This document shows positions 128-36,005 of a stretch of 60,549 nucleotides of DNA, one piece after another. The number at the start of each line of letters is the position of its first letter. Positions within the stretch are counted from its first letter, which is position 1. The notes under the pieces are model-generated. The model had not been told where the DNA came from. It saw only the letters and a list, made by a program, of their open reading frames with translations, and searched no databases. The stretch is from a bacterium (GTDB lineage: Bacteria > SZUA-182 > DTGQ01), in assembly GCA_040755755.1 (NCBI GenBank), contig JBFLZW010000044.1, forward strand, positions 1 to 60,549. Direction: 5' to 3'. Both the position numbers and the translations under genes were made by a program.

Positions 128-328
128 TAGTAACTCCTGACTCCTTGAAAAAGCTCCCCCTCTAGCAAAATGCTCTCCCCCGAAACCGGGGAAGAGCATT
201 TTCATGAGAGACCGGATTGTAATCATTATGGATACTGCATTGGCTCATATCTCATAAATTATAAGGAATTGGCAGTAGTCGTATCGGAAGAAGACAGCTG
301 CTTCAATAAGGAGGTCCAGCCCGGTAAG

Positions 329-713
329 TCAGATTGCCCTTGCAGTATGAAGAGTCTTTCCAATTCGTATAATCCGCCCAAGTCCGTACAGCCCATTCAG
401 TCCGTACAGTCCGCCCAGTCCGTAGAGTCCACTCAACCCGAATAACCCGCTCAATCCGTAGAGTCCGCCATATAAACTGCCCACCCCACACAATCCGGAT
501 AATCCATATAACCCCAGGCCGTATCCTCCGTATAACCCGGAGGTGAATCCATTCAGACCGTACCAGCCAGAGCTATAAAGACCGCTTCCATAATATTCTC
601 CCCCATAAAGGCCGTAGTAGCAATTTCCCCGTGGCAGAAAAAGCAATCACCAGTATTACTGGGATAGCAAGAGTAAGCATGCGCATCACGGTTTTTCTAC
701 TCAGAGTCAACAT
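329..713 (-). pseudogene. Secreted GLYG-repeat protein, frameshifted
   Basis: A start ATG at 713, seven bases after AGGAG, opens a signal-peptide-like segment (MLTLSRKTVMRMLTLAIPV, then a hydrophobic run ending in FSATG). The repeat region lies in the +1 frame, beginning near 625 with NCYYGLYGG and continuing through tandem GLYGL/SGLYG units to the stop at 329. Joining the two frames at the CACGGGGAAATTG tract gives a protein built like its neighbour at 1139-1720. The +1 shift is consistent with one extra base in the G/A run. The gene is therefore a pseudogene, a sequencing error, or less likely a programmed frameshift. The repeat frame alone could start only at TTG (646) and would lack the signal peptide. 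The function of Gly/Leu/Tyr repeats is unknown; a fibrous or surface-layer role is a guess. Confidence 0.6.
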
Positions 714-837
714 CGAAGATCTCCTCAATTTGCGCCTCTGGAGTCATCTGTTCAGCAATGCCTATCCAGAATATCGATCCAGCACATATTCAGCGTCTTC
801 GATCTTGCCTGACCATCTTTCGCGAACCAGTTGAGTA

Positions 838-888
838 GGGGTTGCATCCGGTGATAAAGCTCAGAAGCTAAAACCTGGATGCAACCCC
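838..888. other. Long hairpin, 12-bp perfect stem
   Basis: GGGGTTGCATCC (838-849) is the exact inverse of GGATGCAACCCC (877-888), with a 27-base loop. It sits between the two GLYG-repeat genes, 124 bases upstream of the ATG at 713. No T-tract follows on either strand, so it is not a classical terminator. It may be a structured leader or a small repeat element. The rest of 714-1138 shows no gene; at 1068-1088 there are two adjacent copies of an AATT-C6 motif. Confidence 0.5.
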
Positions 889-1138
889 TCCCGGTATCAG
901 GAACCGGTTGGGGGGGAGTTTCATACCGATCCCTGACCCTGCTGAAATTCTTTAATCTACCCCTAACGCAATCTTCTTACCACAATGTCTTCTTAACGCG
1001 CGATGTTTACTATTGCCTACACGATCCTCATCTTCCTGACATGATCCTTTTTATTCCCTGAACCTGAATTTCCCCCCAAATTCCCCCCAAAGCCTACCCT
1101 TGCGAAAAGACCATCTCCCGATCCTGACAGGAAAATTT

Positions 1139-1720
1139 TCATATTACCGGGACAGTTATAACCGCATCCGCGGTGGCGGTTGCAGCCGTACTGGCTGTCT
1201 GGACAGTCTCCGGGACCGGAGAAGAGAACATGGCTGCCAGCAGTAAAGACTGCCATCCGGGGTTTCCCAGTCCTCCACTGGCCAGCAGTTGAAGTCCATA
1301 GGAGCGTAACTCATTCAATCCGGAAGATCCGAAAAGACCGGACAGGCTCTGCAACCCGTTCTGTTTACCCAGGCCGTATAACCCAAGGGTCCCCAGACCG
1401 TACAGCCCCGATCCGTATAAACCGAGACCGTACAATCCCGTACCAAATAAACCGGGGCCGTAAAATCCCAGGCCGGACAATCCCAGACCACTGAGACCGC
1501 TCAGGCCGTATAGACCATACAGCCCGGAGAGGCCGCCGACTCCCGATCCGAAATACCCAAGACCGAGACTGGCAGCGAAGGAATAAGGATACCCGTAACT
1601 CCGGTATGGCGAGGCATAGCCGGTATAACCACCGTAAAGCCCGAAATAGGCGAGACAGGTTACGGGCCAGACTGCCAGCACAATACCAAGAGCAACAGCC
1701 ACTGCTTTGGCTGGTTGCAT
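1139..1720 (-). CDS. Secreted Gly-Leu-Tyr (GLYG) repeat protein
   Basis: Predicted 193 residues from ATG 1720, preceded by AAAGGGGGG; a TTG 18 bases upstream is less likely. An N-terminal signal peptide (KAVAVALGIVLAVWPVTCLA) is followed by an aromatic segment with YGG and YGYP motifs. About 100 residues of GLYG, GLSGLG and GSGLYG repeats come next, then a non-repetitive alanine-rich tail with a hydrophobic stretch near WQSLLLAAMF. The repeats are also visible in the DNA as variants of CCGTACAGCCC. Together with the frameshifted copy at 329-713 it forms a same-strand pair of paralogues. No enzymatic domain is seen. The composition resembles structural glycine-rich proteins, so a surface or envelope role is possible, but no family was recognised. 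Confidence 0.75.
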   Translation of the reverse strand: MQPAKAVAVALGIVLAVWPVTCLAYFGLYGGYTGYASPYRSYGYPYSFAASLGLGYFGSGVGGLSGLYGLYGLSGLSGLGLSGLGFYGPGLFGTGLYGLGLYGSGLYGLGTLGLYGLGKQNGLQSLSGLFGSSGLNELRSYGLQLLASGGLGNPGWQSLLLAAMFSSPVPETVQTASTAATATADAVITVPVI

Positions 1721-2269
1721 ATCCCCCCTTTGAGTCAATATTTCCTCCCCATACTCGGTTGAGCTCAGTTGATTCGGTTTTCCTTTTTTCCTCTTGTCTG
1801 TTCATTTTGCCTCAAGAGAAGTGCAAAGTGTATGCCATGGACGAAAAAGTCTCTTGAGACCGCATTTCCCGGCAGGGCAGATTTCGTCTGTTACCCATGC
1901 TGTCAGAGGATTTAAAGAGCGAGAGAATTACCTGAAAACCGAGAGAATTACCTGAAAACAAGGGGAAAGGCTTCGAGTACCATAAGCCGGGATTTCACAA
2001 CACGAATGGGGCTCTGGACCGATAACTGCTCTCTCAGCCGGTCGGTAGCCGGTATAAAAACCGGTTTGACGCACAGGGCATATGAAAAATAGCAGGGGGG
2101 AATGCTTTAACATATTGGAAACACGATAACTTTGCTGACATAGACTTCACCCTCTGAAAGCAATAAAATTTATACTACTTGCGATTTTTGTCTCTTGAAT
2201 CAAGATGCCAGAGCCGATGATTTATTGAAAAGGACCGGCTCGAAAAGAAACGATGCTCAGGATGAGAGA
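1721..2269. other. Gene-free stretch with a tandem 20-bp duplication
   Basis: No convincing coding sequence was found in these 549 bases. A 20-base unit beginning GAGAGAATTACCTGAAAAC is repeated head to tail at 1921-1940 and 1941-1960. A short inverted repeat (GCCGGTATAAAAACCGG) lies near 2048-2064. The first part should hold the promoter of the GLYG-repeat gene, but no clear -35/-10 pair was identified. Confidence 0.4.
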
Positions 2270-3025
2270 TCAGTGGATGAAGGGTTTGCGGAAAGCAAGA
2301 TTGATATAATCCGTAATTCGATGGATATCTTCGGTTTTAATATTAAAAAATTTGACTCCTACGTCCTTCCAGGGGAAGCGCAGGTGCCCCCTGGCCCATT
2401 TGATTTCTCCCAGAATATGGATCGGGTCTGCGGAAAAGGGGAGCAGGATATTCAGCGTAACATAGGGGAGTATCCTGGTCGAATCATTTACTACCAGCTT
2501 AATGCCGTCCTTGCTCAAATCCATCCCCTTGGAAATCATCTCCTCCTGAAAGCTGTCGTAGATGTCGCTGAAATGATACTTAACCAGGATTTTCGTCGAT
2601 GCTCTGATCTCTTTCCTTCGATCATTGGGCATAGTATTGGGCGGTGAATCGCTCTCAAATTCTTTCGTAAGCTGAATCTCTTTGATCAGGACAGGAAGAC
2701 ACTCCAGGATAAGCGTTTTTATCGGGCAGGCATTCGGCTTCTCCTGCTGAGAGATTTCTATGGCCTTCTGCGTCAGCAGCCGAAAGAGAAAAAGAAGTTT
2801 AAGTGAGGGGTCAAGTCGTTGCATCTGCCTGGTAATCGCCACCTCTTCCTCTCTTTTGACATTGGAGCTGAGGATGAGGAGATCGTACTTGCGGACCTGG
2901 ACCATAAACTCCGCCGCCTCGACATTCTCGACAATATCAACATAGTGCCCATCCATGAGCAGATAGTTGCAAATGTAATCCGCGAAGGAATCTTTACTAA
3001 CCAGTAAAATTAACAGATCCCCCAT
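2270..3025 (-). CDS. Receiver-like plus PilZ domain protein
   Basis: 251 residues. The N-terminal ~120 residues look like a response-regulator receiver fold (MGDLLILLVSKDSFADYICN, then YDLLILSS with Asp48 near the phosphoacceptor position), but conserved receiver residues are not all present, so phosphorylation is doubtful. Residues ~135-245 form a PilZ domain with the RxxxR signature RRKEIR (136-141) and the D-x-S-x-x-G motif DLSKDG (169-174), the known cyclic-di-GMP ligands. It is probably a cytoplasmic c-di-GMP effector affecting motility, adhesion or exopolysaccharide. A sigma-54 activator gene lies upstream on the same strand, and a candidate sigma-54 promoter lies between them at 3207-3222. 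The output target is unknown. Confidence 0.8.
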   Translation of the reverse strand: MGDLLILLVSKDSFADYICNYLLMDGHYVDIVENVEAAEFMVQVRKYDLLILSSNVKREEEVAITRQMQRLDPSLKLLFLFRLLTQKAIEISQQEKPNACPIKTLILECLPVLIKEIQLTKEFESDSPPNTMPNDRRKEIRASTKILVKYHFSDIYDSFQEEMISKGMDLSKDGIKLVVNDSTRILPYVTLNILLPFSADPIHILGEIKWARGHLRFPWKDVGVKFFNIKTEDIHRITDYINLAFRKPFIH

Positions 3026-7217: not shown

Positions 7218-7980
7218 GCCAGCCGACAACATGAATAGAGGGGAATCCCGAATCATTCTGGCTTGTGACATCCAATTGGACCGCGACTACGAGTTGACCG
7301 GCCCTTCCCGAAAGGCGTTGCAACTGTGGGAGCCGCGCAGGGGGGAAATCATCACGGTCATGGATGCGGGTCTGCACAGTTACCGTGCCCGGATTTTCGA
7401 CCTGTCGGCTGAAGGGGCCAGAATTCACGTTTTTGCCAGAGGGGATGGCCCTGTCGGGACCGGGAGGGAAATTATCCTCCACCAGGCCCTGCCCGAAAGG
7501 GAGCGGATGGAATGGATCATTCAGAAAGCCACCGAGCTTGGGGTTTCTGCCATCGCCCCATTCAAATCGGCGCGGTCCACCTCGCTGGAGGAGAGGGAAA
7601 GCAGGCAAAAGAAAGCTCACTGCTGGCCCCGCATAGCCCTGCGGGCTGCCAAGCAGTGCCGCAGGCCCGACATCCCTTATCTCTTCCCTTTGTGCACCTT
7701 TCAGGAATCTTTGCACCAGGCACGGCAAAGCGGCCTCCGGATACTCCTGTGGGAAAAGCAGGAAGCAGGACTGACTCCGGCCGATCTCTTGAGACGGCCA
7801 TGTGGCAGCGGAGGAATATCTGTCATGGTCGGTCCTGAAGGGGGGTTTACCGAGGATGAAGTCACTTTGGCCAGACAGGAAGGGTTTGAAACCCTTCACC
7901 TTGGTCCCCGCATTTTGAGAACGGAAACAGCGTCCCTGGCCCTTCTCAGCATCCTTCAGTTTGTGTTGGGTGATTTTTGA
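7210..7980 (+). CDS. rsmE: 16S rRNA m3U1498 methyltransferase
   Basis: 256 residues. The N-terminal PUA-like domain (residues ~15-85) leads to the SPOUT catalytic domain, with QKATELGVSAIAPFKSARST, VMVGPEGGFTEDE and LGPRILRTETASLALLS, the hallmark RsmE motifs that form the trefoil knot and SAM pocket. RsmE methylates N3 of U1498 in 16S rRNA. The ATG at 7210 overlaps the trmJ stop by eight bases; a second ATG at 7231 (MNRGESRI) is possible. No terminator is evident downstream before the convergent small gene at 8039. Confidence 0.93.
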   Translation: MPEPADNMNRGESRIILACDIQLDRDYELTGPSRKALQLWEPRRGEIITVMDAGLHSYRARIFDLSAEGARIHVFARGDGPVGTGREIILHQALPERERMEWIIQKATELGVSAIAPFKSARSTSLEERESRQKKAHCWPRIALRAAKQCRRPDIPYLFPLCTFQESLHQARQSGLRILLWEKQEAGLTPADLLRRPCGSGGISVMVGPEGGFTEDEVTLARQEGFETLHLGPRILRTETASLALLSILQFVLGDF

Positions 7981-8038
7981 GATAAATACATTACCCGAAC
8001 AGATTCTCATAGCCCCTTCATAGGGCAGATGTAATCCT

Positions 8039-8278
8039 CTACTGTTTTAAGAGAGGGCGAATCACTTTTTTCATTACCCAGTCGTAATTGGGAGGGGTAT
8101 CTGAACGGGCCATTTCCCCCATGACATAGACCGTCTCCCCTTGACAGTATTTGTGCAGTCTCTCAAGAAGATTCAATGATCGTTCCTGAAACTCCTGGTC
8201 AGAAAGACTGTCATTGTAGCGGTTGAGAAAGTATTCCCGGCAGAAGTTCAGGATGGTGTTGATTTCCGGATATCCCAT
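8039..8278 (-). CDS. Small conserved-looking hypothetical protein, 79 aa
   Basis: 79 residues from ATG 8278, with GAGGAGG about ten bases upstream. The sequence MGYPEINTILNFCREYFLNR is followed by a helical segment (QEFQERSLNLLERLHKYC) and a basic tail. No signal peptide or membrane segment is present. It lies alone, convergent to rsmE and divergent from the HIT gene. The good ribosome binding site and plausible codon usage support a real gene; no family was recognised. Confidence 0.6.
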   Translation of the reverse strand: MGYPEINTILNFCREYFLNRYNDSLSDQEFQERSLNLLERLHKYCQGETVYVMGEMARSDTPPNYDWVMKKVIRPLLKQ

Positions 8279-8477
8279 AATATAGAGCCTCCTCGAAGAA
8301 CACTATTCGGGTGATTGATTTGTATCAGACATTTTCCCATTTTAGCAAGCAAGTTTTATGCCAAATATTGGCGAATCTACCAGCAGGATTTATCACCCGG
8401 AATATAAAGGGATATATAGGCGGGGATGGCGAAGGGCAGGAAAACACCTCCTGTTTATTTTCTTGACAGTAATAAAA

Positions 8478-8501
8478 CTTTCGGTAAAAAATTGCCGAAA
8501 G
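8478..8501. other. Hairpin in the region 8279-8570
   Basis: CTTTCGG (8478-8484) pairs with CCGAAAG (8495-8501) around a ten-base AT-rich loop. It is the only clear structure in the gene-free stretch between the divergent 79-residue gene and the HIT gene. It is about 70 bases upstream of the HIT promoter and has no terminator-like T-tract. Confidence 0.35.
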
Positions 8502-8570
8502 ACTTCGGCCTTCTTGTTCAAATGCTGAAAATGTATAAAAATCACAATCTTGATTGCCTTTCGTAATTGT

Positions 8571-8599
8571 TTGACAAGATTGGCAAAATCGATTAGAAT
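8571..8599 (+). promoter_or_regulatory. Sigma-70-type promoter of the HIT gene
   Basis: TTGACA (8571-8576) and TAGAAT (8594-8599) are separated by 17 bases, near consensus. The expected start site near 8606 leaves a leader of about 28 bases before the ATG at 8635. Confidence 0.75.
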
Positions 8600-8634
8600 T
8601 ATACCGCTTGCTCAAGAGAGGAGAAAGAATACCT

Positions 8635-9111
8635 ATGGAAAAAATCTGGGCTCCGTGGAGGATGCAGTATATTCTTTCCGAGAAGAAAAGTGGCTGTATA
8701 TTTTGTGAAAAAGCACAAGAGAGCGAAGACAGGGGAAATTATATTTTATTTCGTGATACGCTCGGATTCGTTATCATGAACATTTTCCCGTATAATAACG
8801 GGCATCTCATGATAGCTCCGTATCGTCATGCAGCCAGTCTGGAAGAGTTATCTTCGGAAGAGCTTTTCCAGATCATGACGTTGACCAAAAAGAGCGTGGC
8901 CTGTTTGCAGGAGGCCATGAAGGCTGATGGATATAATATTGGCATGAATGTCGGGGCCGTGGCCGGGGCCGGAATTGCCGATCACCTTCACCTCCACATC
9001 GTACCCAGATGGTGCGGAGATACCAATTTCATGCCGGTTTTAGCGGATATCAAGGTGCTGCCTCAGCATCTGGATACCACCTATGATATCCTGAAACCTC
9101 TCTTTCGATAA
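8635..9111 (+). CDS. HIT-family nucleotide hydrolase/phosphorylase
   Basis: 158 residues from ATG 8635, preceded by GAGAGGAGAAAG. It opens with MEKIWAPWRMQYI, common to bacterial AP4A phosphorylase-like HIT proteins. CIFCEK could bind metal together with other residues. The core has NIFPYNNGHLMIAPYRH and the catalytic histidine triad HLHLHIVPRW. HIT proteins cleave dinucleoside polyphosphates or nucleotide phosphoramidates. It begins a likely operon with the lapA-like gene (47 bases downstream) and lapB, all under the promoter at 8571-8599. Confidence 0.9.
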   Translation: MEKIWAPWRMQYILSEKKSGCIFCEKAQESEDRGNYILFRDTLGFVIMNIFPYNNGHLMIAPYRHAASLEELSSEELFQIMTLTKKSVACLQEAMKADGYNIGMNVGAVAGAGIADHLHLHIVPRWCGDTNFMPVLADIKVLPQHLDTTYDILKPLFR

Positions 9112-9158
9112 CGAAAAAGCTGGAAATAGAGAAATGGACAGGGTTGGGAGTGGAGATA

Positions 9159-9491
9159 ATGCATATTATTAAAATATTGCTGGTTGTGGTTATAGTTATC
9201 GTCAGTGTCGATTTTGTCAGGCAAAATGACTGGATTGTCAGGCAGGGTTATCAAATCCAGTATTATCGGTATCAAACCATAGAGATCCCGGTGATTCTCC
9301 TGCTTCTGGGCAGTCTCTTTTTTGGTGCCTTGATGGTGAGCATACCTTCATTCGTCAAGAACTTTAACCTGAAGAGGACCTTGAAAGCGGAGCGCCGAAG
9401 ATGTGCCCAGATGGAAAGGGAACTGAATTCCCTCCGGAACTTGCCGCTTACCGATGAAAAGGCCATTGAACGAATTGGAAAGGACACTTGA
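9159..9491 (+). CDS. lapA: LapA-family inner membrane protein
   Basis: 110 residues from ATG 9159, with GGAGTGGAGA upstream; a TTG at 9144 is an alternative. Two membrane helices (IIKILLVVVIVIVSVDFV and IPVILLLLGSLFFGALMVS) are followed by a charged coiled-coil segment (LKAERRRCAQMERELNSLR). This is the DUF1049/LapA layout. In Escherichia coli LapA forms a membrane complex with LapB that controls LpxC turnover and so lipopolysaccharide synthesis. The gene is 12 bases ahead of lapB, as in enterobacteria, which supports the assignment. Confidence 0.82.
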   Translation: MHIIKILLVVVIVIVSVDFVRQNDWIVRQGYQIQYYRYQTIEIPVILLLLGSLFFGALMVSIPSFVKNFNLKRTLKAERRRCAQMERELNSLRNLPLTDEKAIERIGKDT

Positions 9492-9503
9492 GGCAGAGAA
9501 ACA

Positions 9504-10673
9504 ATGCACAATGTATCTATCTACTTCACGGCTGCCATCTCCCTGGCTCTTGGAGCCTGGCTGGGGTGGACCATAGCTAAAAAGCCATCGCCGGAAAAAA
9601 AGACCGGCCAGAACGATCGCGACGCCTATATCCGGGGACTCAAATACATCATTTCCAATCAACCGGATAAGGCCATTGCCGAATTCACCAGGGCGGTTCA
9701 GGTCGATTCAAATACCATTGAAATTTACCAGGATCTGGGCAACCTGTTTCGGGAGCGGGGAGAGGTCGGACGGGCGACTCAGATTCACCAGAGTATTCTC
9801 TTACGGCCTTCACTGGACAGGGAATTCCGGATATCCGCTCTCATGAACCTGGGACTTGACTACCAGAAAGGCGGGTTTATCGACCGCGCAATCAAGGTTT
9901 ATCAGGAAGTCCTGGAGCATGACGAGGATAACCTGCAGGCCTACCGGCTGCTGGAAGAGCTGTACGAGGAAGGAAAAGACTGGGAAAACGCATACCAGAT
10001 GGAAAAACAGATTCAGAAACTTGCAGGAGCTTCCAGTAATTACTCCCGGATAGCACACCTTATGACTGAAATGGGTAAGGTGGCTTATCAGAAAAACGAC
10101 TATACTCAGGCCATCAAAAAACTGAAAGAAGCAATCAGCCTGGACAAAGACTGCACCGAGGCATATCTTATCCTGGGAGACATTTATCTGGCCGAGGATA
10201 AACCAGCCAAGGCGATTGCCATTTTCAATAAAATCATCTCCTCGGATCAGTACCAGCATTCCTTCGGCGTGCACAAGCTGCTGGAAAAGGCTTATCTCCA
10301 GAAGGGAAGATTTGAGAGCATAGAATCAGTTTACCAGGAAATTTTAACCCGTCGTCCCCAGGATACCCGGACCAGGGCTATCCTGGCTGATTATTACTAT
10401 AAAAAAGGGCTCATACCCAGAGCAATCGAAGAACTGCAGGAGGGGCTGAAAGTTTGCCCCGAGTCTCTGACCCTTCGCTCCACGCTGGCCGAAATGTTGA
10501 TCCGCGACAACCGTCAGGATGAGGCTCTTCGGGAATATCAACACCTTATAGAACAGATCATGGATAAAAACGAAGTTTTTTCCTGTCAAAAGTGTGGTTA
10601 TCAATCCTCCCAGATCCAGTGGAAGTGCCCGCAGTGCAAGGAATGGGACAGCTACGTGGCTCACCAGATATAA
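9504..10673 (+). CDS. lapB: LapB (YciM) TPR protein controlling LPS synthesis
   Basis: 389 residues, the usual LapB length. The N-terminal membrane helix (IYFTAAISLALGAWLGWTIA) is followed by about nine tetratricopeptide repeats, for example RDAYIRGLKYIISNQPDKAI and QAYRLLEELYEEGKDWENA. The C-terminus carries a rubredoxin-like zinc ribbon (FSCQKCGYQ ... WKCPQCKEW) with four Cys. In known members LapB anchors at the inner membrane and directs LpxC to FtsH. It follows the lapA-like gene directly. Its presence argues for an LPS-bearing outer membrane. Confidence 0.92.
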   Translation: MHNVSIYFTAAISLALGAWLGWTIAKKPSPEKKTGQNDRDAYIRGLKYIISNQPDKAIAEFTRAVQVDSNTIEIYQDLGNLFRERGEVGRATQIHQSILLRPSLDREFRISALMNLGLDYQKGGFIDRAIKVYQEVLEHDEDNLQAYRLLEELYEEGKDWENAYQMEKQIQKLAGASSNYSRIAHLMTEMGKVAYQKNDYTQAIKKLKEAISLDKDCTEAYLILGDIYLAEDKPAKAIAIFNKIISSDQYQHSFGVHKLLEKAYLQKGRFESIESVYQEILTRRPQDTRTRAILADYYYKKGLIPRAIEELQEGLKVCPESLTLRSTLAEMLIRDNRQDEALREYQHLIEQIMDKNEVFSCQKCGYQSSQIQWKCPQCKEWDSYVAHQI

Positions 10674-10727
10674 AATCCTGCCGTTTTCCGCCGACACTTT
10701 TAAAGACAAAAGAAACCAGACACAACC

Positions 10728-13418
10728 ATGATTGACAACCTGAAATCCAATCAGACCACGCATGATGAGACAAACGGACCATGTCTGCCCGCTGCCGAAG
10801 ATGCGGCTCTGACTCCCATGATGCAGCAGTACACCCGGATCAAGCGGGAGTACCGTGAGGCGATTCTTTTTTTCCGGCTGGGTGATTTTTATGAAATGTT
10901 CGGCGAGGATGCCGAAGTTGCCTCCCGGATACTTCAGCTTACTCTGACCAGCCGCGACCGGAACAAGGAAAATGCCGTGCCTCTGTGCGGAGTGCCCTAT
11001 CATGCAGCGGAAGGCTATATTGCCCGGCTGATCAGGGAAGGCTACACGGTGGCTGTCTGCGATCAGGTGGAGGACCCGAAAAAGGCCAAAGGGATCGTCC
11101 AGCGGGAAGTGACCAGGGTAGTTACCCCCGGCACGATCACCGATTCGAACCTGCTGGAAGGAAAAGAGAATAATTTTCTGGGATCCCTGGCCGTCAAGTC
11201 TTCCGGCCTCGGACTGACCTTTGCCGATGTTTCGACCGGCGAGCTCTGGATAACCGAATACCAGGGGCCGGACTGGTATCAGAAGCTTGAAACCGAGCTT
11301 TTTCGCAAAGCCCCGCGGGAGCTGATCGTCCCCCGCTCCCTGGCCGAAGATCATCTTTTCCGAAAGCTGTGGGCCGGGCTTCCCCGCATCCGCCTCGAAT
11401 ACCGGGATGATGACCGCTACCGGGAGGAGAGCGCCCGCAAATGCCTGCGGGAGCATTTCATGGTCCACTCCCTGGACGGGCTTGGCTGTGAGGGAAACAG
11501 TCTGGCAATTTTATCGGCAGCCGCAGCCATTTCCTATCTGCGCTCAACCCAAAAGCGCGATCTCTCCCACCTGCGCCGGCCCCAATGGTACAGCCTGAGC
11601 GAGTATATGATCATCGATGCCGCCACCCAGCAGCATCTTGAGCTGGTCTCTTCCTGGCAGGATGCCAAAAAAGGCGGCTCCCTGATGGCCGTTCTCGACC
11701 TGACCGAGACCTCGATGGGAGGACGCACGCTCAAGCAGTGGATTCTCCACCCCCTGCTCCAGGTTGAGGCAATCAACCAGCGGCTTGAGGCTGTGGAGTT
11801 TCTGGCCAGCCGACAGAGTCTGCGCCAGCAGCTGCGGGAGCTGCTGAAAAAGGTCTATGACCTTGAGCGGATATCCGGAAAAATTGCCCTCTTTTCCGCT
11901 TCGGCCCAGGACCTGACCGCGCTGAAAAATTCGATCGCTTTCCTTCCCCGGATAAAAGCCCTGCTGCCCAAAGAGCCTGCCTCCTCCCTGTTGGCCTCTC
12001 TGGCCGGATCGTGCGATGAGCTTCAGGATGTCTATCAGTGGATTACCTTAAGCCTGGCTGATCCCCCGCCCCCACCCTCGCAGGATACCGGCCTTATCAG
12101 GGAAGGGTACTCGGCTGAGCTGGATGAGCTTCGCCAGCTTGCCTTCGAGGGCAAAAACTGGATTGCCCGGCTGGAAAACCAGGAGCGCCGGAAGACCGGC
12201 ATCTCGTCGCTGAAAGTAAGATACAACAAGGTGTTTGGCTACTACATCGAAGTGACCAAAGCCAATCTGGGGCTGGTCCCGGACAACTACATCCGCAAGC
12301 AGACCATTGCCAATGGAGAGCGCTACATCACTGCCGAGCTCAAGGATTACGAGACCAGGGTCCTGACCGCCCACGAGAAAATGGTGCAGATGGAAAAATC
12401 CCTGTTCCAGGAACTTCTGGCCCGGCTCTCCCCGCAGGTGAACCGGATGCAGGAAACCTCCCGGAGCCTGGCCAGGCTTGACGTTCTGGCTGCTCTGGCT
12501 GAAGCTGCCTGCCGGTATCACTATGTCAGGCCGACGGTCAATGCCGGATCAGCCATTCAGATCGTCGAAGGCCGTCATCCGGTCGTGGAGCATCTGTCAA
12601 AGGATGAACGCTTTGTGCCCAACGATACCAGCCTCGATGACGAGAAAAACCAGCTCCTGATTATCACCGGCCCGAATATGGCTGGAAAATCAACCTATAT
12701 CCGGCAGGTGGCCCTGATCACCCTGATGGCCCACCTGGGCAGCTTCGTTCCGGCCAAAGAGGCGGTCATCGGCCTGGTGGACCGGATCTTTACCCGGGTA
12801 GGCGCGTCCGACAATCTGGTCAAGGGGCAGAGTACCTTCATGGTCGAAATGAATGAAACCGCCAACATCCTGAACAATGCCACCAGCCGCAGCCTGATTA
12901 TCCTGGATGAAATCGGCCGGGGGACCAGCACCTTTGACGGAATCAGCATTGCCTGGGCAGTGGCTGAGTACCTGCACAGCGAAAAGGTAGGAGCAAAAAC
13001 CCTGTTTGCCACCCACTACCATGAGCTGACCCGGCTGGCTGATTCCCTGGACAGGGTCCGGAATTACAGCGTGGCTGTCCGGGAATGGAACGATGAGGTG
13101 ATTTTCCTGCGGCGGATCATGGCCGGCAGCGCGGATAAAAGCTACGGCATTCACGTAGCCCGGCTGGCCGGGCTTCCTCCGCAGGTAATCGAGCGGTCCA
13201 AAGAGATCCTCACGTCCCTGGAAAAGCATAACGTCGAGGCTGCCGCCGAGACATCCGCCTTTCAAAAAGGCCAGCTCCGAAAGGGACGGCAGTTGTCTCT
13301 CTTTACCGCTCCGGAAGAATATGTGGCCGCAGAGCTTCGAGCCCTGGACCTTGGGAAACTTCCCGCTCAGGAGGCACTCAGGCTTCTCAAGAAATGGCAG
13401 AAGCTTATTGGGGGGTGA
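10728..13418 (+). CDS. mutS: DNA mismatch repair protein MutS
   Basis: 896 residues, full MutS length. The mismatch-binding domain has the Phe-X-Glu-type motif in FFRLGDFYEMFGEDA. The connector, lever and clamp domains follow, with the clamp sequence YNKVFGYYIEVTKANL. The C-terminal ABC-type ATPase has Walker A GPNMAGKST (about residue 648), STFMVEMNE, Walker B LIILDEIGRGTSTFDG and the switch ATHYHEL. It recognises base mismatches and short loops in DNA. The start ATG 10728 has only a weak ribosome binding site. The gene ends seven bases before the convergent coiled-coil gene, with no terminator between them. Confidence 0.97.
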   Translation: MIDNLKSNQTTHDETNGPCLPAAEDAALTPMMQQYTRIKREYREAILFFRLGDFYEMFGEDAEVASRILQLTLTSRDRNKENAVPLCGVPYHAAEGYIARLIREGYTVAVCDQVEDPKKAKGIVQREVTRVVTPGTITDSNLLEGKENNFLGSLAVKSSGLGLTFADVSTGELWITEYQGPDWYQKLETELFRKAPRELIVPRSLAEDHLFRKLWAGLPRIRLEYRDDDRYREESARKCLREHFMVHSLDGLGCEGNSLAILSAAAAISYLRSTQKRDLSHLRRPQWYSLSEYMIIDAATQQHLELVSSWQDAKKGGSLMAVLDLTETSMGGRTLKQWILHPLLQVEAINQRLEAVEFLASRQSLRQQLRELLKKVYDLERISGKIALFSASAQDLTALKNSIAFLPRIKALLPKEPASSLLASLAGSCDELQDVYQWITLSLADPPPPPSQDTGLIREGYSAELDELRQLAFEGKNWIARLENQERRKTGISSLKVRYNKVFGYYIEVTKANLGLVPDNYIRKQTIANGERYITAELKDYETRVLTAHEKMVQMEKSLFQELLARLSPQVNRMQETSRSLARLDVLAALAEAACRYHYVRPTVNAGSAIQIVEGRHPVVEHLSKDERFVPNDTSLDDEKNQLLIITGPNMAGKSTYIRQVALITLMAHLGSFVPAKEAVIGLVDRIFTRVGASDNLVKGQSTFMVEMNETANILNNATSRSLIILDEIGRGTSTFDGISIAWAVAEYLHSEKVGAKTLFATHYHELTRLADSLDRVRNYSVAVREWNDEVIFLRRIMAGSADKSYGIHVARLAGLPPQVIERSKEILTSLEKHNVEAAAETSAFQKGQLRKGRQLSLFTAPEEYVAAELRALDLGKLPAQEALRLLKKWQKLIGG

Positions 13419-20018: not shown

Positions 20019-20145
20019 ATCAGCACCGGCACGGGGAGTAATCAGAGAGGGGAAATATGTGGTATACGGGAGATATAGTGCTTGACAATAACCCAAGAAA
20101 TAAGGTGAAAAAAAACAGATCGTGCTATTATCGATTACGTCAGAT

Positions 20146-23100
20146 ATGACCAAAACATTCGAAAAGCTGTCAGCATCGTATGCGCAACTATCATCTTTGG
20201 AACAGACGGTCATCCAGATGCTGTCGATCATCTATGAACCGACCCATCAGACAGCGCTCTTGAACTGCCTGCGCAGCAGCGGTATCAGAGCACCTGAAGG
20301 AAGGGCTCTGGACAACCAGGATGTAAGGAGTGCATTGGTCGTACTCAGAAAAAAGGGGTTTATCGGCGATCAGGTCGTGTGCCATCCGGCCTTTGTGGAG
20401 GAAGCCACTACTCTGGCGGTGGAAAGCGGACGGTTCCCGGCCATGATCAAAGCGGTCCAGGCCCAGTTTCCAGCTCCATACTGGGGGCAATCTCCTGACC
20501 GATGCATCCGTGAAATACGCATCGGGGTATACAGCCACGACCCGGATCATGTCAGAAAGTTTTATAACATCGGCTACACGCATTTTCCCCAGACTTTTGC
20601 CCGAAAAAAGATCCTGGCCATGATCTGCAACAGCCCATTTCGCCCTGCCTGGTTTCGTCAGCTCCCGTTAGGCATTCGAGTTACAGCCCTTGAAGAAATC
20701 GCCGTTCTGGCCCTGCGGGATTTGACCCATCCTGAAAAAATCACCGGGCTGTTGAATGAATACCGCGATCTTTCCCGGGAGCAATTCGGATCATATTTCC
20801 GGGATGCCCTGGCTGCTGTCTTACTTTTTCGGGGCAGGCTGGATGATGCCCTGGAGGTCGTTAAAAAAGATCAGGGACTCATGTATGTGCGTCTTATTGA
20901 AGGATGGTGTGATTTTCTCCGGGGGAATAATGACCAGGCCATTGCCCGATATCAGAATTTCCTGAAGGAGCATCGAAAAGGGGCAGGCCGCAAAAAGCTC
21001 TTCTTTAACCATGTAAGTGGAATATTCTACCTTCTGGCCCTGCTGAAGACCGGACAGGCTGCTTACTCACGGGAGATACTCGACTGCATCCGCAATGTGG
21101 AAGAAAAGCAGCAGTATGATAACGAGTACCCTGATGCGTATCAGGCACTGAAAGCCACCCTGCTTTCGCAGCAGGGCCAGGCTGAAGAAGCCAGAATCAT
21201 ATTTTCCCTGCTGAAGAACGCACCGCCGGATGATAGCATATCCAGGCTTTTTTCTATTCTGGCTGTCTACTGGATAACCAGAGAGCTGAATGCCGATCAG
21301 GTATCCATGCTCGAAGCGATTTTTTCCAAAGCGGAGGAAGGCGGCTATCTCTGGTTTTCCCTGGAATCCGCCAATCTCCTGGCCGCTCTTTTCCCCAGGG
21401 AGCAGAAGTACCGGAAGCGGGTCGAGGAAATTCAGGCCCAGACAGGCATGCACTCTATCCTGGGTATTATTCGCTATGAAGCCGAGTGGGAGCGCTCACT
21501 CACGGCCCTGACCAATCTGGTGGCCGGTGCTCCTGCGGATAAGGGTAAAGCAGTCGGGGAATCGCGCCTTATCTGGCGGCTTGGCATTGACCAAAACTAT
21601 TGCCGCTTTCAGCCCGTGGAACAAAAGCTCACCAAGAGCGGACAGTGGTCCAAGGGCCGTCCGGTCGCTCTCAGCAGGCTTTACTCACGAAAGGACCTGC
21701 CCTTTCTGACACCCCAGGATCAGAAGATCTGCGCCACCCTTTCGATGGAGCGTGATTATTGGGAGACAAGCTATCACTTCAACTGGCCAAAGACCCTGAC
21801 AGCCATGATCGGCCATCCGCTCCTGTTCCATGCAGATAAACCGGACCTTCGGATGGAGCTTATGCCCGGCAGTCTGGAGCTTCTGGTTGAACGGCAGGGA
21901 AACCAGTTCCAGATCAGGTTCTCCGAAGATTCGAAACGTATTGCCGATCACGATATCATCCTGGTTCAGGAAGGGAAGACCAGGTATCGGGTCATTGAAG
22001 TCACTCCCCAGCACCGGGCCATAGCCAAGATTCTCGGTCCGGATGGCCTGAAGGTGCCTGCCGAAGCCAAAGACAGGGTTCTCAGCACCACATCTGCCCT
22101 TGCTTCTGTGGTTACGGTGCAGTCGATGGTTGAGGGCAGGATGGAAAATGTCGAGGAGGTAGCGCCGGACACCAGGATCCATGTTCATCTTCTTCCTGCC
22201 GGATACGGGTTCCATCTGGAGATGCTGGTCAAGCCACTGTCTCTGGGAGGGCCTTACCTTAAGCCGGGTCTGGGAGGAAAGAATATCATGGCCGAGATCG
22301 AGGGGAAGCGGGTTCAGACCACCCGGAACCTTCAGCAGGAGCGGGCAAAGGCCAAAGAGGTGGTTGATGCCTGCCCGGTCCTGGCCAGTCTGGATGAAGG
22401 CGACTTCGAGTGGCTCATCGAGGAAACGGAGGATTGCCTTCAGACACTGCTCGATCTCCAGCAGATCGAAGGTATTCAGGTTGAATGGCCGGAGGGAGAG
22501 AAATTGAAGCTGGTCAGCCGTCAGCTCTCTTTTGACCAGATGAGGCTGCGGATACACCGGGAGAGAGACTGGTTCGGCGTCAGCGGTGAGCTGCAGCTCG
22601 ATGAATCGAAGGTGCTTGACATGCGAAGGCTCCTTGAGCTTATGGAAGCTGCACCCGGACGGTTCATTCCCCTGGGGGAAGGCCAGTTTCTGGCCCTGAC
22701 CAATGAATTCCGCAGGCGGCTGGATGAGTTGAAAGCCTTCTCCGATCCGACTGCCAAGGGAGTGAGGTTTCATCCTCTGACCTCGCTTGCCTTACGGGAA
22801 TTTACCGACAGCGTCGGCTCTCTGGAAGCGGATGAAGCCTGGCGGGAGCACCTGGGGCGGATCGACCGTTCGCAGAACCTGCGGGCCAAGGTTCCTTCGA
22901 CCTTGCAGGCGCAACTGCGCGATTACCAGGTTGACGGCTTTATGTGGCTGGCCCAGTTGGCCAAATGGGGGGTCGGTGCCTGCCTTGCTGACGATATGGG
23001 CCTGGGAAAGACCGTTCAGGCCCTGGCTATGATTCTGGAGCGGGCTGGGGGCGGGCCGACCCTGGTTGTCGCTCCCACCTCGGTCTGCATGAACTGGGTG

Positions 23101-24285
23101 GAGGAAGCGCATCGCTTTGCCCCGACCCTGCAAATTGTCCAGTTTTCGGGAAAAGACCGAAAGAAGCAGCTTGAGGGGCTGGGAGCCTTCGATGTTCTGG
23201 TCACCAGTTACTCTCTGCTGCAGATAGAGTCGGACATCCTTTCCGAAATCCACTGGCAGACTGTTGTTCTCGATGAGGCCCAGGCTATTAAAAATATGGC
23301 CACCAAAAGATCGCAGGCCGCCATGTCCCTCGAAGCAGGTTTTAAAATGATCACCACCGGAACCCCGATCGAAAATCACCTGGGTGAGCTGTGGAACCTC
23401 TTTCATTTCCTCAATCCGGGTTTGCTGGGGTCTTTGGAAAAGTTCAATCAGCGGTTCGGTATCCCGATCGAAAAATATCAGGACAAGGAGGCCAGGAAAC
23501 GGCTCAAGAAACTGATCCAGCCCTTTATCCTGCGAAGAATCAAGAGCCAGGTGCTGGAAGAGCTTCCGCCGCGCACGGAAATCACCCTGCATGTTGAAAT
23601 GAACAGCGAGGAAATCGCCTTCTACGAGGCCCTGCGACAGGATGCCCTCACCCGGATTGAGAGGCTTGCGGGTCCGCCGGGGCAGAAGCACCTGCATATC
23701 CTGGCAGAAATCATGAAGCTGCGCCGGGCCTGCTGCAATGTGCGGCTGGTCGACCCCGGCCTCAGCATGGAAAGCTCCAAAATGGCGCTTCTGGCCGAAG
23801 TCGTGGAGGAGCTTCTCGAAAACCGGCACAAGGCACTGATATTCAGCCAGTTTGTCGATCACTTATCCCTCATCAGGGAATTTCTGGATGAGAAGGGGAT
23901 ATCCTACCAGTACCTTGATGGCAGCACTCCGGTCAGAGAGCGAAGGCGGCGGATCGACGCCTTTCAGACCGGCGAGGGGGACCTCTTTCTGATCAGCCTG
24001 AGGGCCGGAGGGTTTGGGCTGAACCTGACAGCGGCGGATTTCGTGATTCACATGGACCCCTGGTGGAATCCGGCTGTCGAGGATCAGGCCTCGGACCGGG
24101 CGCATAGAATCGGGCAGCAGCGCCCGGTGACTGTCTACCGGCTGGTCACCCGGCATACGATAGAAGAAAAAATCGTCAACCTGCACGAAGAAAAACGGGA
24201 CCTGGCTTCCAACCTCCTGGATGGCAGCGATATGACCGGCAAAATGTCCGCCGACGAACTGCTCCAGTTGATCCGGGAGCAGTAG
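20146..24285 (+). CDS. Large SNF2-family helicase (Swi2/Snf2 ATPase)
   Basis: About 1379 residues from ATG 20146; a GTG at 20122 is possible. Residues ~1-450 are helical and TPR-like, without a recognised motif. The middle (~500-880) holds beta-rich SNF2-associated sequence. The ATPase core starts near residue 920 (LRDYQVDGFMWLAQLAKWGV), with motif I ADDMGLGKTVQ, TSYSLLQIE, motif II DEAQAIKN and TGTPIENHLGELW. The second lobe has ALIFSQFVDHLSLIREFL, YLDGSTPVRER, LISLRAGGFGLNLTAADFV and DRAHRIGQQRPVTVYRLV. Bacterial SNF2 proteins translocate on duplex DNA; some belong to defence systems, but no partner methylase or nuclease adjoins this one. It is probably transcribed alone or with thyX upstream. 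Confidence 0.88.
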   Translation: MTKTFEKLSASYAQLSSLEQTVIQMLSIIYEPTHQTALLNCLRSSGIRAPEGRALDNQDVRSALVVLRKKGFIGDQVVCHPAFVEEATTLAVESGRFPAMIKAVQAQFPAPYWGQSPDRCIREIRIGVYSHDPDHVRKFYNIGYTHFPQTFARKKILAMICNSPFRPAWFRQLPLGIRVTALEEIAVLALRDLTHPEKITGLLNEYRDLSREQFGSYFRDALAAVLLFRGRLDDALEVVKKDQGLMYVRLIEGWCDFLRGNNDQAIARYQNFLKEHRKGAGRKKLFFNHVSGIFYLLALLKTGQAAYSREILDCIRNVEEKQQYDNEYPDAYQALKATLLSQQGQAEEARIIFSLLKNAPPDDSISRLFSILAVYWITRELNADQVSMLEAIFSKAEEGGYLWFSLESANLLAALFPREQKYRKRVEEIQAQTGMHSILGIIRYEAEWERSLTALTNLVAGAPADKGKAVGESRLIWRLGIDQNYCRFQPVEQKLTKSGQWSKGRPVALSRLYSRKDLPFLTPQDQKICATLSMERDYWETSYHFNWPKTLTAMIGHPLLFHADKPDLRMELMPGSLELLVERQGNQFQIRFSEDSKRIADHDIILVQEGKTRYRVIEVTPQHRAIAKILGPDGLKVPAEAKDRVLSTTSALASVVTVQSMVEGRMENVEEVAPDTRIHVHLLPAGYGFHLEMLVKPLSLGGPYLKPGLGGKNIMAEIEGKRVQTTRNLQQERAKAKEVVDACPVLASLDEGDFEWLIEETEDCLQTLLDLQQIEGIQVEWPEGEKLKLVSRQLSFDQMRLRIHRERDWFGVSGELQLDESKVLDMRRLLELMEAAPGRFIPLGEGQFLALTNEFRRRLDELKAFSDPTAKGVRFHPLTSLALREFTDSVGSLEADEAWREHLGRIDRSQNLRAKVPSTLQAQLRDYQVDGFMWLAQLAKWGVGACLADDMGLGKTVQALAMILERAGGGPTLVVAPTSVCMNWVEEAHRFAPTLQIVQFSGKDRKKQLEGLGAFDVLVTSYSLLQIESDILSEIHWQTVVLDEAQAIKNMATKRSQAAMSLEAGFKMITTGTPIENHLGELWNLFHFLNPGLLGSLEKFNQRFGIPIEKYQDKEARKRLKKLIQPFILRRIKSQVLEELPPRTEITLHVEMNSEEIAFYEALRQDALTRIERLAGPPGQKHLHILAEIMKLRRACCNVRLVDPGLSMESSKMALLAEVVEELLENRHKALIFSQFVDHLSLIREFLDEKGISYQYLDGSTPVRERRRRIDAFQTGEGDLFLISLRAGGFGLNLTAADFVIHMDPWWNPAVEDQASDRAHRIGQQRPVTVYRLVTRHTIEEKIVNLHEEKRDLASNLLDGSDMTGKMSADELLQLIREQ

Positions 24286-31247: not shown

Positions 31248-34200
31248 ATGAGCTTATGTCAAATTCCAAATATTAATGAGAAAGCCGTTCGACTCGTTGA
31301 GTATCTGCGGCGGCTCGCTTCTCTGCGCTCTCCATTGGTGCGGGAGATCACCGGTTATGAAATGGTTCTCTGGGTCGGTGGGATCCCGCAACAAAAGGGA
31401 TGCTTCACTCAGGCTTGGGGACGAGATGAAAAATACGATCCAGATATCTGGATCGAGGTCCAGAGTCGGCGGGAACCAGAATTGCCGAGCGTCCCGGAGC
31501 AGTGCCAGAATTGGGTTAACGAGAATACTCTGCGGAACAAGAATGAACTGCCGGAACTTCTATCGTCCATAACCATCCAAGATCGCAATCCCAACTGGAA
31601 GGAAGGCTCCAATCTACCAGAGCTTATAACCTGCACCGCAAGGCTTGAGGATCATCCAGAAATTCAAAGTGCATGGGACCGCTGGGTTGAAGAACGCTGG
31701 CTGCCATGGACGGAAGAGCATAATGCCTGGGAGAGCATCCATAAGATATATTCCGAACTCTTTGCCATCCACCAGGAACAAATGCGACTCGGTGAGGAGT
31801 ATGAGCTCGTTCTCGGTCTTGGCCTTCTTATCTGGCAGACTCCAAGCGGGCACCGTGTTTGCCGCCACTTGATTGTCGCCAACGCCCTGCTTGAGTTTGA
31901 GGCGCGTTTGGCAAAATTCACTGTCCGGCCAAACCCGGATGGCGCAAAACTTCGACCTGAGCTCGATATGCTGGATATTAAGGGTCAACCAGCGCACGCT
32001 GAGGAAGAGGCGAAGCGGGCATTGACTGCTGCTGGGGATGATCCGTGGGAAAAGGATTGTATTGAAGGGGTACTTCAAGCTCTTGTGCGTTCAATCAATT
32101 CGCAGGGCGAATATGACAGCGCATTGGAAGGGAAGAGTGTCCGAGCATCCGGTAAACCCGTTGTTAAATATGCGCCCGCCCTTATTCTGAGAAAACGATG
32201 CGCAAGAGGTCTTACTGAAATATTGAACCGGATTAAGGGACGGATTGAGAAGGGCGAGGATATTCCCCGCGAGTTTTTGGATCTTGCTGAAATACAATCG
32301 GCAAGTGATGTCGATTCGGAAAATGATTCGGGTGAAGTGAATAGCTGCTTTGATGGTGAAGTGTTTTTCCCAAAGCCATCAAATGAGGAACAGCGTCGCA
32401 TCGTGGAGATGCTCAGAAGAGCAAGTCTCGTACTTGTGCAGGGGCCTCCTGGTACGGGAAAATCCCATACGATCGCTAATCTAATCTGCCACCTGCTTGC
32501 CACCGGCCAGAGAACGCTGATCACAGCAAAAACTCCTCGTGCACTTCAGGTTCTCGAAGGACTTATCCCGGATGAACTTCGGCCGCTCTGCATCAACGTG
32601 CTCGGCAGCGGACGTGAAGAGAAGAGGTCGATGGAATCCAGTGTCGGCGGAATACTCCGGAAGAAAGATGAATGGAGCGAAAAACAGGCAGCCAGAGTTC
32701 GTGAGGAACTTGAGCAAAAGCTCCGCGAATTGCGGGAGGAGAAAGCTAAAATCAACAGAAGGCTTCGCGATATCCGGGAATCCGAAGTTTATTCACATTC
32801 CATTGCTGAAGGAACCTATCGAGGTACCGCTGCACGAATAGCAGAAGCTATGAATCGGAATAGGAGTACCTACGAATGGTTCACGGACACGGTCCCTCTG
32901 GATGGGACTTGTCCAATCTCCGAAAGCGACTTGCGAAATGTGCTTGGGGGTCTGCGCCGCTTCACAGCCGAAAAGCGGCAGGAGTTAATCCGTCCGCGGC
33001 CAAAAGACCTGCTATCACCCGAAAGAGTCTCCACCCTCTTTGAGCATGAGAAAAAGGCGATTGAAGAAGAGTCCCGTTCGGCAAAAGGAGCGGATGAGCA
33101 ACTGATAGCCGATCATCTATCAAGGATGGAGGCCGAAACTATCAAGGCGATCCATGATTCCCTTTCTGCTTTCCTGAACGAGTACCAAAGGCTTTCCACA
33201 TCGCCTCATGCATGGATATGCGAAGCTTTGCGTGATGTTGCAGGCGGCAATTCATCCATGTGGCGTGACCTTCACTGCGTTACTCGGGATACAATCACCT
33301 CTATCGAACCGCTGGCCTCTGTGGCGGATGATACCACCATTGACTTTCCAGATACAACCAATATCAGAGCACTCCGTGAAGATGCCTGCAAACTGAAAGA
33401 GCACATGGAAAATGGCGGTAAACTTGGGTGGTGGGGGCCATTCCGCCCAAAGCTGGTTAAAGAGCGTGCTTATGTACTCAAGACCGTTCGAATAAACGGG
33501 CGTTCCTGCTCCACCCTTGAGCATATCTCAGTTCTGGCCGATGCGCTGTATGTACGGATTGCATGCGAAAAGGCATGGAGATTCTGGGCAGGCCGGTGTA
33601 AAAATATCCAGGGGCCTTATACCCTGCAACTACACAGGCTGAAAGCTTTGTATGACGCCTTGACCAGTGTGCTGTCCATCGAGACTCTCATTGAGCAATG
33701 CCGCAAGGCCCTGCAGCACTGTCCACATCTGGGCGAATCCATTTGGACCAATGAATTGCAGGTAAGAAAAATCATTGCCTCTTGCAGGCTTGCACTGGAC
33801 CGTCAAGCAAAGCGCCTTGCTATTGAAGAAATCCGGAGGATTGAAGCTCCACTGATGGTACTTGTTGCTAAGAGCGGTGTACATCCCATAACAGGAGAGT
33901 TACTTCAGTCACTTCGCCAACGTGACCCTGAGGGATTCGCACGTGCCTGGAATAAATTGCATGATCTGGATAGAGATTGTCAACATCTTCATAAGGTGAA
34001 CGAAGACATTAACAAACTGCGGCATCTTGTGCCAAGGCTGGTTGGGGAATTGGAACGCACCTGCAATGATGCCTGCTGGAATTCACGTGTTCAGGAGATA
34101 GAAAGTGCCTGGCATTGGGCCCAGGCAAGGTTCTGGGTTGAGGAATACATACGAAAGGAAGACGCTCCAAATCTCGCCAGGCGCGCAAGGCAGATTGAGG

Positions 34201-36005
34201 ACGAAATCAGCATAACCATTACGAAACTCGCTGCACTCCATGCATGGTCGTTCTGCTTCTCCCGTCTTCAGGATAAGCACCAGCGTCACATGGTAGCTTG
34301 GCAACAGGAGATGAAGAAATATGGCAAAGGAACGGGAAAACATGCGCACTTACACCTTCGTGAAGCCCAGAAACACTTGAACGAGTGCCGGGAGGCGGTT
34401 CCGGCCTGGGTAATGCCTCTTCATCGGGTCTGGGATACAATAGACCCCTCGCCCGGAATGTTTGACGTCATCATCGTTGATGAGGCATCACAATGCGGCT
34501 TTGAAGCTCTTCCACTCTTTTACCTGGGGAAGAAGATTTTGATTGTGGGAGATGACAAGCAGATCAGCCCGGATGCTGTTGGTTTGTCACGTGATGACGT
34601 GCACGGCTTAATGGAAGAATTTCTTCACGATTTCCGCTTCAGGTCTTCTTTCGACGTCGAGAGCAGCTTATTCGCTCACGGCAAACTGAGATGTGGAAAT
34701 CGGCAGATTATTCTGCGTGAGCACTTCCGATGCATGCCGGAAATTATCCGATTCAGCAACGATCTTTGGTATTTCGATACTCCGTTGATTCCTCTGAGAC
34801 AATACGGACCTGACCGACTGACCCCACTTGAGCATGTTTTTGTCAGGAAAGGCTATCGCCAGGGAAGCGATAGTCGTGCGATCAATCATCCGGAAGCTGA
34901 TGCGATAGCAGAGAAAATTGTTGAATTGTGCAAAGATCCAAGGTACACAGGAAAGACTATGGGTGTTGTGGTGCTGCAGGGGGATGCCCAGTCTGGCCTG
35001 ATAGAGGAAAAGCTATTGAAACTCCTGGGAGCTGAAGAGATGGAGATGCGGCGTCTAATCTGCGGGAATCCATACAGCTTCCAGGGCGATGAACGTGACA
35101 TTATCTTCCTGTCCATGGTTGCCGCAACCAATGATAGAATCGGCCCACTCGCAAAGGCGGCGGATGAAAGAAGATTCAATGTGGCAGCAAGTCGCGCACG
35201 GGACCAGATGTGGCTCTTCCACTCAGTACAGTGCAACGATCTGAGTACACATTGTCTGCGCCGCACGTTACTTAAATTTTTTGAAGATACTCGGCCACGA
35301 AAGATCGCCGGTATTGATAGGGATGAGTTGGAACGTCGAGCGGCGCAGGATAACCGATCAGTCGTTAAAGCGCCACCACCGTTTGAGAGTTGGTTTGAAG
35401 TGAACGTAGCGCTCGAGCTGATCCGCAGGGGATATCTCGTAATACCGCAGTATGAGGTTGCCGGAAAAAGGATTGATCTTGTGGTCGAAGGCGGCCGGAC
35501 GCGATTGGCGGTCGAGTGTGATGGTGATGAGTGGCATGGAGTTGATCGATATGAAGAGGATATGCAGCGTAAACGACAATTAGAACGATGCGGCTGGGTC
35601 TTCTTTAATGTCAGAGAATCGGAATTCTATGCGGATAAGCAAAGGGTAATGGAGCATCTTTATCGCCTTCTCGATGAGAGAGGAATTGTCCCGCAAATCC
35701 GCTTACAAGAAAAGGAATCGGATGTAAAAGATGTAAAAGCTGCACACGATGTAAAAGTCCAAATCGGTGACACGGTGATTTATGTTGATATTCAAGATCC
35801 GCAGATCGAGAAACATATCGTGATATCCAACACAAAATCGAATCCTGATTGGGGAATAGTAAACGTCAATACACCTATTGCACAAGCCCTCTTAGGTTCT
35901 TGTATAAACGATAAGGTGGAAGCCAAGCTCCCAAGAGGTTCTGTGCACCTTCTCGTAAAAGCAATCAAAAAGCCAGCAAGTGAGCACTGGCATCGACAAA
36001 AATAG
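31248..36005 (+). CDS. SF1 helicase with Vsr-like nuclease and GreA/GreB-like C-terminus
   Basis: 1585 residues. Residues ~1-370 are unassigned. The SF1 (Dna2/NAM7-like) core begins with Walker A [20 protein letters not shown] (~396). It is split by a ~600-residue helical, partly coiled-coil insertion. It resumes with motif II [20 protein letters not shown], motif [15 protein letters not shown], then [18 protein letters not shown] and [15 protein letters not shown]. Residues ~1380-1480 are a Vsr/DUF559-type nuclease of the PD-(D/E)xK kind: [41 protein letters not shown]. Residues ~1500-1580 resemble the GreA/GreB C-terminal domain ([11 protein letters not shown] ... [26 protein letters not shown]). 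Helicase-Vsr proteins are known in anti-phage defence (Hhe-like); the Gre-like end is unusual. It probably acts as a single-gene defence or DNA-processing enzyme. Confidence 0.85.
   Translation: [1585 protein letters not shown]

Follow-up and report, generated by a model that had tools for sequence, protein, structure and literature searches.

Domain architecture of the encoded protein

The analysed stretch of DNA, here called the window, comprises 60,549 bp and carries a large open reading frame with an ATG start, whose extent agrees with the first-pass annotation (Table 1). The protein matches four Pfam families above their curated cut-offs: AAA_11 (5.6e-18), AAA_12 (3.5e-14), the MTES_1575 restriction endonuclease family (7.6e-27; 93.7 bits, cut-off 38.2), and GreA_GreB (3e-10; 40.4 bits, cut-off 26.9).

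Table 1. Position of the features in the window and in homologous loci (L numbers).
Locus	Feature	Position	Strand	Residues
Window	Whole gene: SF1 helicase, Vsr/MTES_1575 nuclease, Gre C-terminal domain	31248–36005	+	1585 aa
Window	N-terminal region without Pfam family, common to homologues	31248–32378	+	1–377
Window	AAA_11, start of RecA-like domain 1; Walker A GPPGTGKS 32442–32465	32379–32876	+	378–543
Window	Large insertion, helicase motif I to motif II	32877–34463	+	
Window	Walker B DVIIVDEASQ (34464–34493), motif III, RecA-like domain 2 (AAA_12)	34464–35219	+	AAA_12: 1138–1324
Window	MTES_1575 Vsr-type PD-(D/E)xK nuclease; RID from 35469, ECD from 35514	35394–35666	+	1383–1473
Window	Linker, no room for a Gre coiled-coil finger	35667–35750	+	~28 residues
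Window	GreA/GreB C-terminal (RNAP-docking) domain; TPIA...L motif 35871–35894	35751–35969	+	1502–1574
Window	SNF2 helicase	20122–24285	+	1387 aa
L126	DksA/TraR-type domain tail	742–1521	-	
L125	DksA/TraR-type domain tail	623–1282	+	
L150	PcrA/UvrD-type Tudor domain tail	1873–2430	+	
L033	Homologue with zinc-ribbon-like stretch (ORF)	7935–12941		
L102	Short ORF with weak Gre match	2627–2905	+	
L023	Recurring tail	12354–12869	+	
L149	Recurring tail	1036–1599	-	
L004	Recurring tail	1126–1590	-	
L111	ORF of Rnk-like gene (numbered on its own strand)	287–748	-	
L008	Decayed remnant	1150–1821	+	

Judged by its sequence, the motor is a UPF1-type SF1 helicase with a complete set of motifs. GPPGTGKS (residues 399–406), DVIIVDEASQ (1073–1082), GDDKQISP (1101–1108), SFQGDERD (1277–1284), and RFNVAASRA (1309–1317) are all intact, and the presence of motifs I, II, III, V, and VI together with AAA_11 and AAA_12 places the protein among the UPF1-like SF1 enzymes. 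The split SF1 helicase with Walker A and B motifs and the large insertion described in the first-pass annotation were thus both recovered, with motifs I and II lying 673 residues apart, a spacing found likewise in most of the relatives measured and fitting a large insertion. The PDB sequences nearest to the motor are those of Sen1, SMUBP-2, and UPF1. A homologue from a Zixibacteria metagenome-assembled genome (MAG), L033, has an extra CPxC...CxxC zinc-ribbon-like stretch within the insertion and a motif gap of 729 residues, compared to approximately 673 elsewhere.

The nuclease is of the MTES_1575/Vsr type. In an alignment of 33 homologues the residues E1384, D1410, E1423, and D1425 are invariant, and these include the catalytic D1410...E1423-x-D1425 arrangement of Vsr-type PD-(D/E)xK enzymes, the absence of which had been named at the outset as evidence against such an assignment. 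The predicted structure of the nuclease matches the catalytic domain of I-Bth0305I with a TMt of 0.82 (Foldseek search with a model of nuclease plus C-terminal domain). Together with the Pfam match this upholds the earlier claim of a Vsr-like nuclease.

The tail of the protein is a GreA/GreB C-terminal domain, that is, the RNA polymerase (RNAP)-docking half of a Gre factor alone. This identification, already proposed for the last approximately 80 residues as an FKBP-like Gre domain, is supported by Pfam, NCBIfam, a PDB profile search, and Foldseek, which together rule out a chance likeness. A profile built from three fused tails retrieved Escherichia coli GreA (1GRJ) with an E-value of 1.3e-7. 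In the model of nuclease plus C-terminal domain (mean pLDDT 83), the 14 best Foldseek matches in the PDB were GreA, GreB, Gfh1, or Rnk structures (E-values 1.7e-7 to 6.9e-4, probability 1.00), so that residues 1500–1580, for which dissimilarity to the Gre fold would have contradicted the claim, do resemble it. A model of the C-terminal domain alone was of low confidence (pLDDT 64) and gave top matches that were all of Gre type but weak (best E-value 0.03); the structural analyses are therefore based on the two-domain model.

The N-terminal coiled coil with acidic tip that is characteristic of Gre factors was not found, since the short linker between nuclease and C-terminal domain cannot accommodate it, and the fusion protein is therefore no transcript-cleavage factor. 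The helix motif S124-P125-I126-A127...L130 of GreA corresponds to TPIA...L in the window protein and, apart from conservative substitutions, is retained in most fused relatives across phyla. For E. coli GreA, antipause activity was lowest with the substitutions S124L and L130P, and both Gre factors and DksA bind the beta' rim helices of RNAP through their globular domains (PMC7527559; PMC7749165 for the rim-helix binding). Because GreA S124L retains RNAP binding and both Gre domains seem to be needed for specific binding (PMC7527559), attachment of the lone C-terminal domain to RNAP is a property that we infer.

One C-terminal slot with exchangeable modules

Homologues were collected by a pattern scan (35 loci), by whole-genome searches in seven phyla including that of the window organism, and from plasmids, and 118 tails extending beyond the nuclease were scanned singly. 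The majority were of the winged-helix (DUF3320-like) type: Pfam DUF3320 matched 56 tails and the NCBIfam ProA model 70, DUF3320 being described as overlapping a winged-helix region (PMC3710099). GreA_GreB matched eight tails and zf-dskA_traR two, and no further Pfam family came close (next best E-value 0.001) in this set. The 8/118 is a biased estimate of the Gre frequency because homologues were retrieved in part by a profile that contained the Gre part, a bias that does not affect the DksA and Tudor cases described below.

Besides the window protein, the Gre holders are L014 and L033 from Planctomycetota and Zixibacteria MAGs, respectively, L144 from the phylum of a Chloroflexi MAG, L127 from the phylum of an Acidobacteria MAG, L154 from the phylum of a Deltaproteobacteria MAG, and two plasmid-borne proteins, L045 of Microvirga ossetica and L082 of Rhizobium leguminosarum pRLN2 (WP_105009419.1). 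Their presence in other genomes and on complete plasmids rules out that the fusion is unique to the window genome or an assembly artefact. Two further plasmid matches, from Novosphingobium (H6) and Mesorhizobium (H7), looked full-length, but were rejected as their tails are winged-helix.

The slot that holds the Gre domain is occupied in L126 and L125, which stem from two genomes of the phylum of the Acidobacteria MAG, by an in-frame DksA/TraR-type zinc-finger domain (Pfam 5.6e-12 and 3.2e-11, respectively; also supported by the NCBIfam yteA and DksA models and by PDB matches to DksA). Inspection of L126 by eye did not reveal the DxxDxA tip motif known from TraR/DksA (PMC9239242), a result that would fit a domain that docks but does not act at the active site. 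In L150, the best PDB match of the tail is the C-terminal domain of PcrA (5DMA, 3.8e-5), whose Tudor domain is an RNAP-interaction domain (PMC5397179); the Pfam tudor match (0.0015) lies below the cut-off, making this a weaker match than the Gre and DksA cases. Three unrelated RNAP-binding modules, Gre, DksA, and, with the weaker match, a PcrA-type Tudor domain, thus appear to share one C-terminal slot.

Several additional tails and neighbours were observed. At L102, a DUF3320-type helicase gene overlaps at its 3' end with a small reading frame that weakly matches the Gre C-terminal domain (Pfam 0.003, below the cut-off), which resembles a split fusion. L023, L149, and L004 share a recurring tail (pattern ...DKR..GG.LW..GG.EL...PAW) that matched nothing in Pfam or the PDB and was read as a further aiming domain. 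L111 has a DUF3320-type helicase gene that is closely followed downstream, on the other strand, by a Rnk-like gene, an arrangement that may be coincidental.

For phylogenetic analysis, quick trees were calculated from a core consisting of the second half of the motor and the nuclease. The Gre-bearing proteins were scattered over the core tree, and its starred branches required no fewer than five switches between Gre and other tails, whichever way each switch went. A topology with a single Gre clade was rejected by 760 log-likelihood units (p-AU 3.6e-46, AU test), which rules out one ancient fusion that was passed on vertically. Within the clade of the window protein, the core of L144 is 90% identical to that of the winged-helix protein L011 and 92% identical to that of L016, which ends shortly after the nuclease with hardly any tail. 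Since the tail of L144 is nevertheless a Gre domain (59% identical to that of the window protein), the tail is swapped faster than the core diverges. The C-terminal slot of this helicase-nuclease family is a swap site.

These data also bear on the possibility that the Gre fold now serves some other contact and has lost RNAP binding. Consistent with this, only the C-terminal domain is present, its sequence outside the TPIA...L region is far from that of GreA, and some tails, such as those of L082 and L154, have diverged further. Such a loss is nonetheless improbable given that the same slot holds two other RNAP-binding modules of unrelated folds and that the helix motif persists across phyla.

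Genomic context and distribution

The helicase-nuclease-Gre gene is present as a single copy in its genome, and no intact copy was found in eight other genomes of the same phylum. Decayed remnants occur in two of these relatives (G007 and G004; L008 and L005), pointing to repeated loss. In L008, whose genome belongs to the class of the window organism, the end of the nuclease, the linker, and the Gre domain can still be made out in succession. The third-position G + C content is 0.50 in the gene and 0.40 in its Gre part, whereas most nearby genes tested have approximately 0.60–0.70, in line with recent acquisition. The pattern fits a solitary gene that is acquired sporadically. An ordinary, canonical GreA is encoded elsewhere in the host genome, so that the fused domain is unlikely to stand in for cellular GreA; in genome G060, the fusion is the only GreA-type protein found, which may reflect incompleteness of this MAG.

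Among the neighbouring genes examined, which code for a dockerin-bearing deacetylase, an S49 peptidase, a SNF2 helicase, MutS, and a polysaccharide/sugar transferase operon, no dense defence island was recognised. The SNF2 helicase gave strong PADLOC matches to DpdE and ZorD and no system partners were recognised for it; it is probably a stand-alone SNF2 protein. No PADLOC match was obtained among the neighbours tested around L033, L014, L011, L013, and L017, no common operon partner was recognised around L033, L014, or L011, and the Pfam-scanned neighbours of relatives were metabolic or without assigned family. No helicase fusion was detected in the phage and viral collections searched.

One explanation of the gene that draws on this context is transcription maintenance, in which an RNAP-bound helicase-nuclease would clear stalled polymerases or R-loops in a manner akin to Sen1, HelD, and PcrA. 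The kinship of the motor to Sen1, SMUBP-2, and UPF1, the adjoining housekeeping genes, the PcrA-type Tudor tail in the same slot, and the precedent of HelD, an SF1 NTPase whose arm is Gre-like (PMC7749165), all agree with such a role. Sporadic presence, remnants in relatives, and plasmid copies are, however, unlike a housekeeping gene, as are the low third-position G + C content and a nuclease site that appears to be active, and we regard this explanation as unlikely.

Proposed role and relation to known systems

The best explanation, to which we assign a probability of about one half, is that the gene codes for a sporadically acquired, single-gene helicase-nuclease of defence type that would be tethered to RNAP by a borrowed Gre C-terminal domain. 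Both RNAP binding and anti-phage activity are predicted properties of the window protein. In this model, the beta' rim helices would serve as the docking site of the Gre domain, which would keep the enzyme on the outside of the secondary channel and, lacking the coiled-coil finger, would itself provoke no transcript cleavage. Nucleic acid accessible at the transcription complex, whether nascent RNA, an R-loop, or DNA close by, would be the substrate of the motor, and cutting by the nuclease would take place at this complex, so that foreign DNA would be attacked where it is transcribed. The tail would set the place of work, which would be RNAP in a minority of the family; the winged-helix relatives, which make up most of it, presumably reach their targets via nucleic acid binding.

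Defence is favoured over other roles because of the kinship to PDC-S37, ProA, and Hhe, the sporadic occurrence, and the plasmid copies. Counting against the best explanation are the apparent need for both Gre domains in specific RNAP binding and the retained binding of GreA S124L (PMC7527559), the lack of a dense defence island around the gene, scores below the ProA and Hhe cut-offs, and the small minority of Gre tails. Of the first-pass proposal of a defence nuclease that is recruited to, or senses, transcription complexes, the domain reading held and recruitment gained in plausibility through the scattered Gre tails in several phyla and the DksA and PcrA-type Tudor domains in the same slot, whereas defence is still a matter of family resemblance.

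The tails would also suit a guard of RNAP, in which the tail senses phage take-over or modification of the enzyme and unleashes the nuclease, and the cell dies by abortive infection. Gre, DksA, and Tudor tails address host RNAP and not foreign DNA, and helicase-gated activation of a nuclease is known from Hachiman (PMC10925250). As the sequence gives no sign of regulation by the state of RNAP, and a tether accounts for the same facts in fewer steps, a guard function seems even less likely than transcription maintenance.

Tethering of a defence nuclease might extend beyond the Gre fusions. It is conceivable, albeit somewhat less probable than the reading for the window gene itself, that a branch of immunity finds its targets by riding on RNAP with an exchangeable aiming domain (Gre, DksA, or PcrA-type Tudor) and cuts foreign DNA at the transcription complex. 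To our knowledge, the target choice of large helicase-nuclease defence proteins is mostly unexplained, and a swappable C-terminus, either winged-helix or RNAP-docking, offers part of the family a concrete explanation that can be tested. If correct, it would tie immunity to transcription and give bacteria a counterpart of Sen1 and other UPF1-type motors acting on transcription complexes.

Among known systems, the window protein resembles the MTES_1575-type SF1 helicase-Vsr-winged-helix proteins (PMC3710099) in its motor, the position of the nuclease, and the single large polypeptide, but differs in that Gre replaces the winged-helix/DUF3320 tail. PADLOC PDC-S37, itself only a candidate system, matches residues 382–1491 (1.5e-56; profile positions 298–1354 of 1550) and leaves the Gre tail outside. 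The scores for ProA (NCBIfam NF058533, 187.2 bits) and Hhe (NF042953, 128.7 bits) are far below the respective equivalog cut-offs of 1500 and 2000, and the protein is therefore not a member of either. CnuH of type III-B CoCoNuT (PMC11090510) likewise combines a UPF1-like helicase, interrupted by a large insertion downstream of Walker A, with a directly fused Vsr-like nuclease. The window gene differs by its Gre tail and by its neighbourhood, in which no McrB/McrC homologues were found beside the gene, the neighbours being the dockerin-bearing deacetylase and the sugar transferase operon. Assignment to ProA, Hhe, or CoCoNuT was rejected, as the defining features of these systems were not found.

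With GreA, GreB, Gfh1, and Rnk the window protein shares the C-terminal domain fold and the SPIA...L helix motif, but not the N-terminal coiled-coil finger. HelD (PMC7749165) and PcrA/UvrD (PMC5397179) likewise combine an SF1 motor with an RNAP-docking element, which is Gre-like in HelD. Their motors are of the UvrD type and have no fused Vsr nuclease, whereas that of the window protein is of the UPF1 type. The Gre-like element of HelD, moreover, is N-terminal with a coiled coil entering the secondary channel, whereas the Gre domain studied here is C-terminal; the combination of UvrD-like motor and N-terminal Gre-like arm that marks HelD was thus not found. Helicase-nuclease-Gre fusions were not described in the open-licence papers searched. 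Within an established type of helicase-nuclease the fusion forms a novel variation, and the exchange of tails at one slot among relatives is a new finding.
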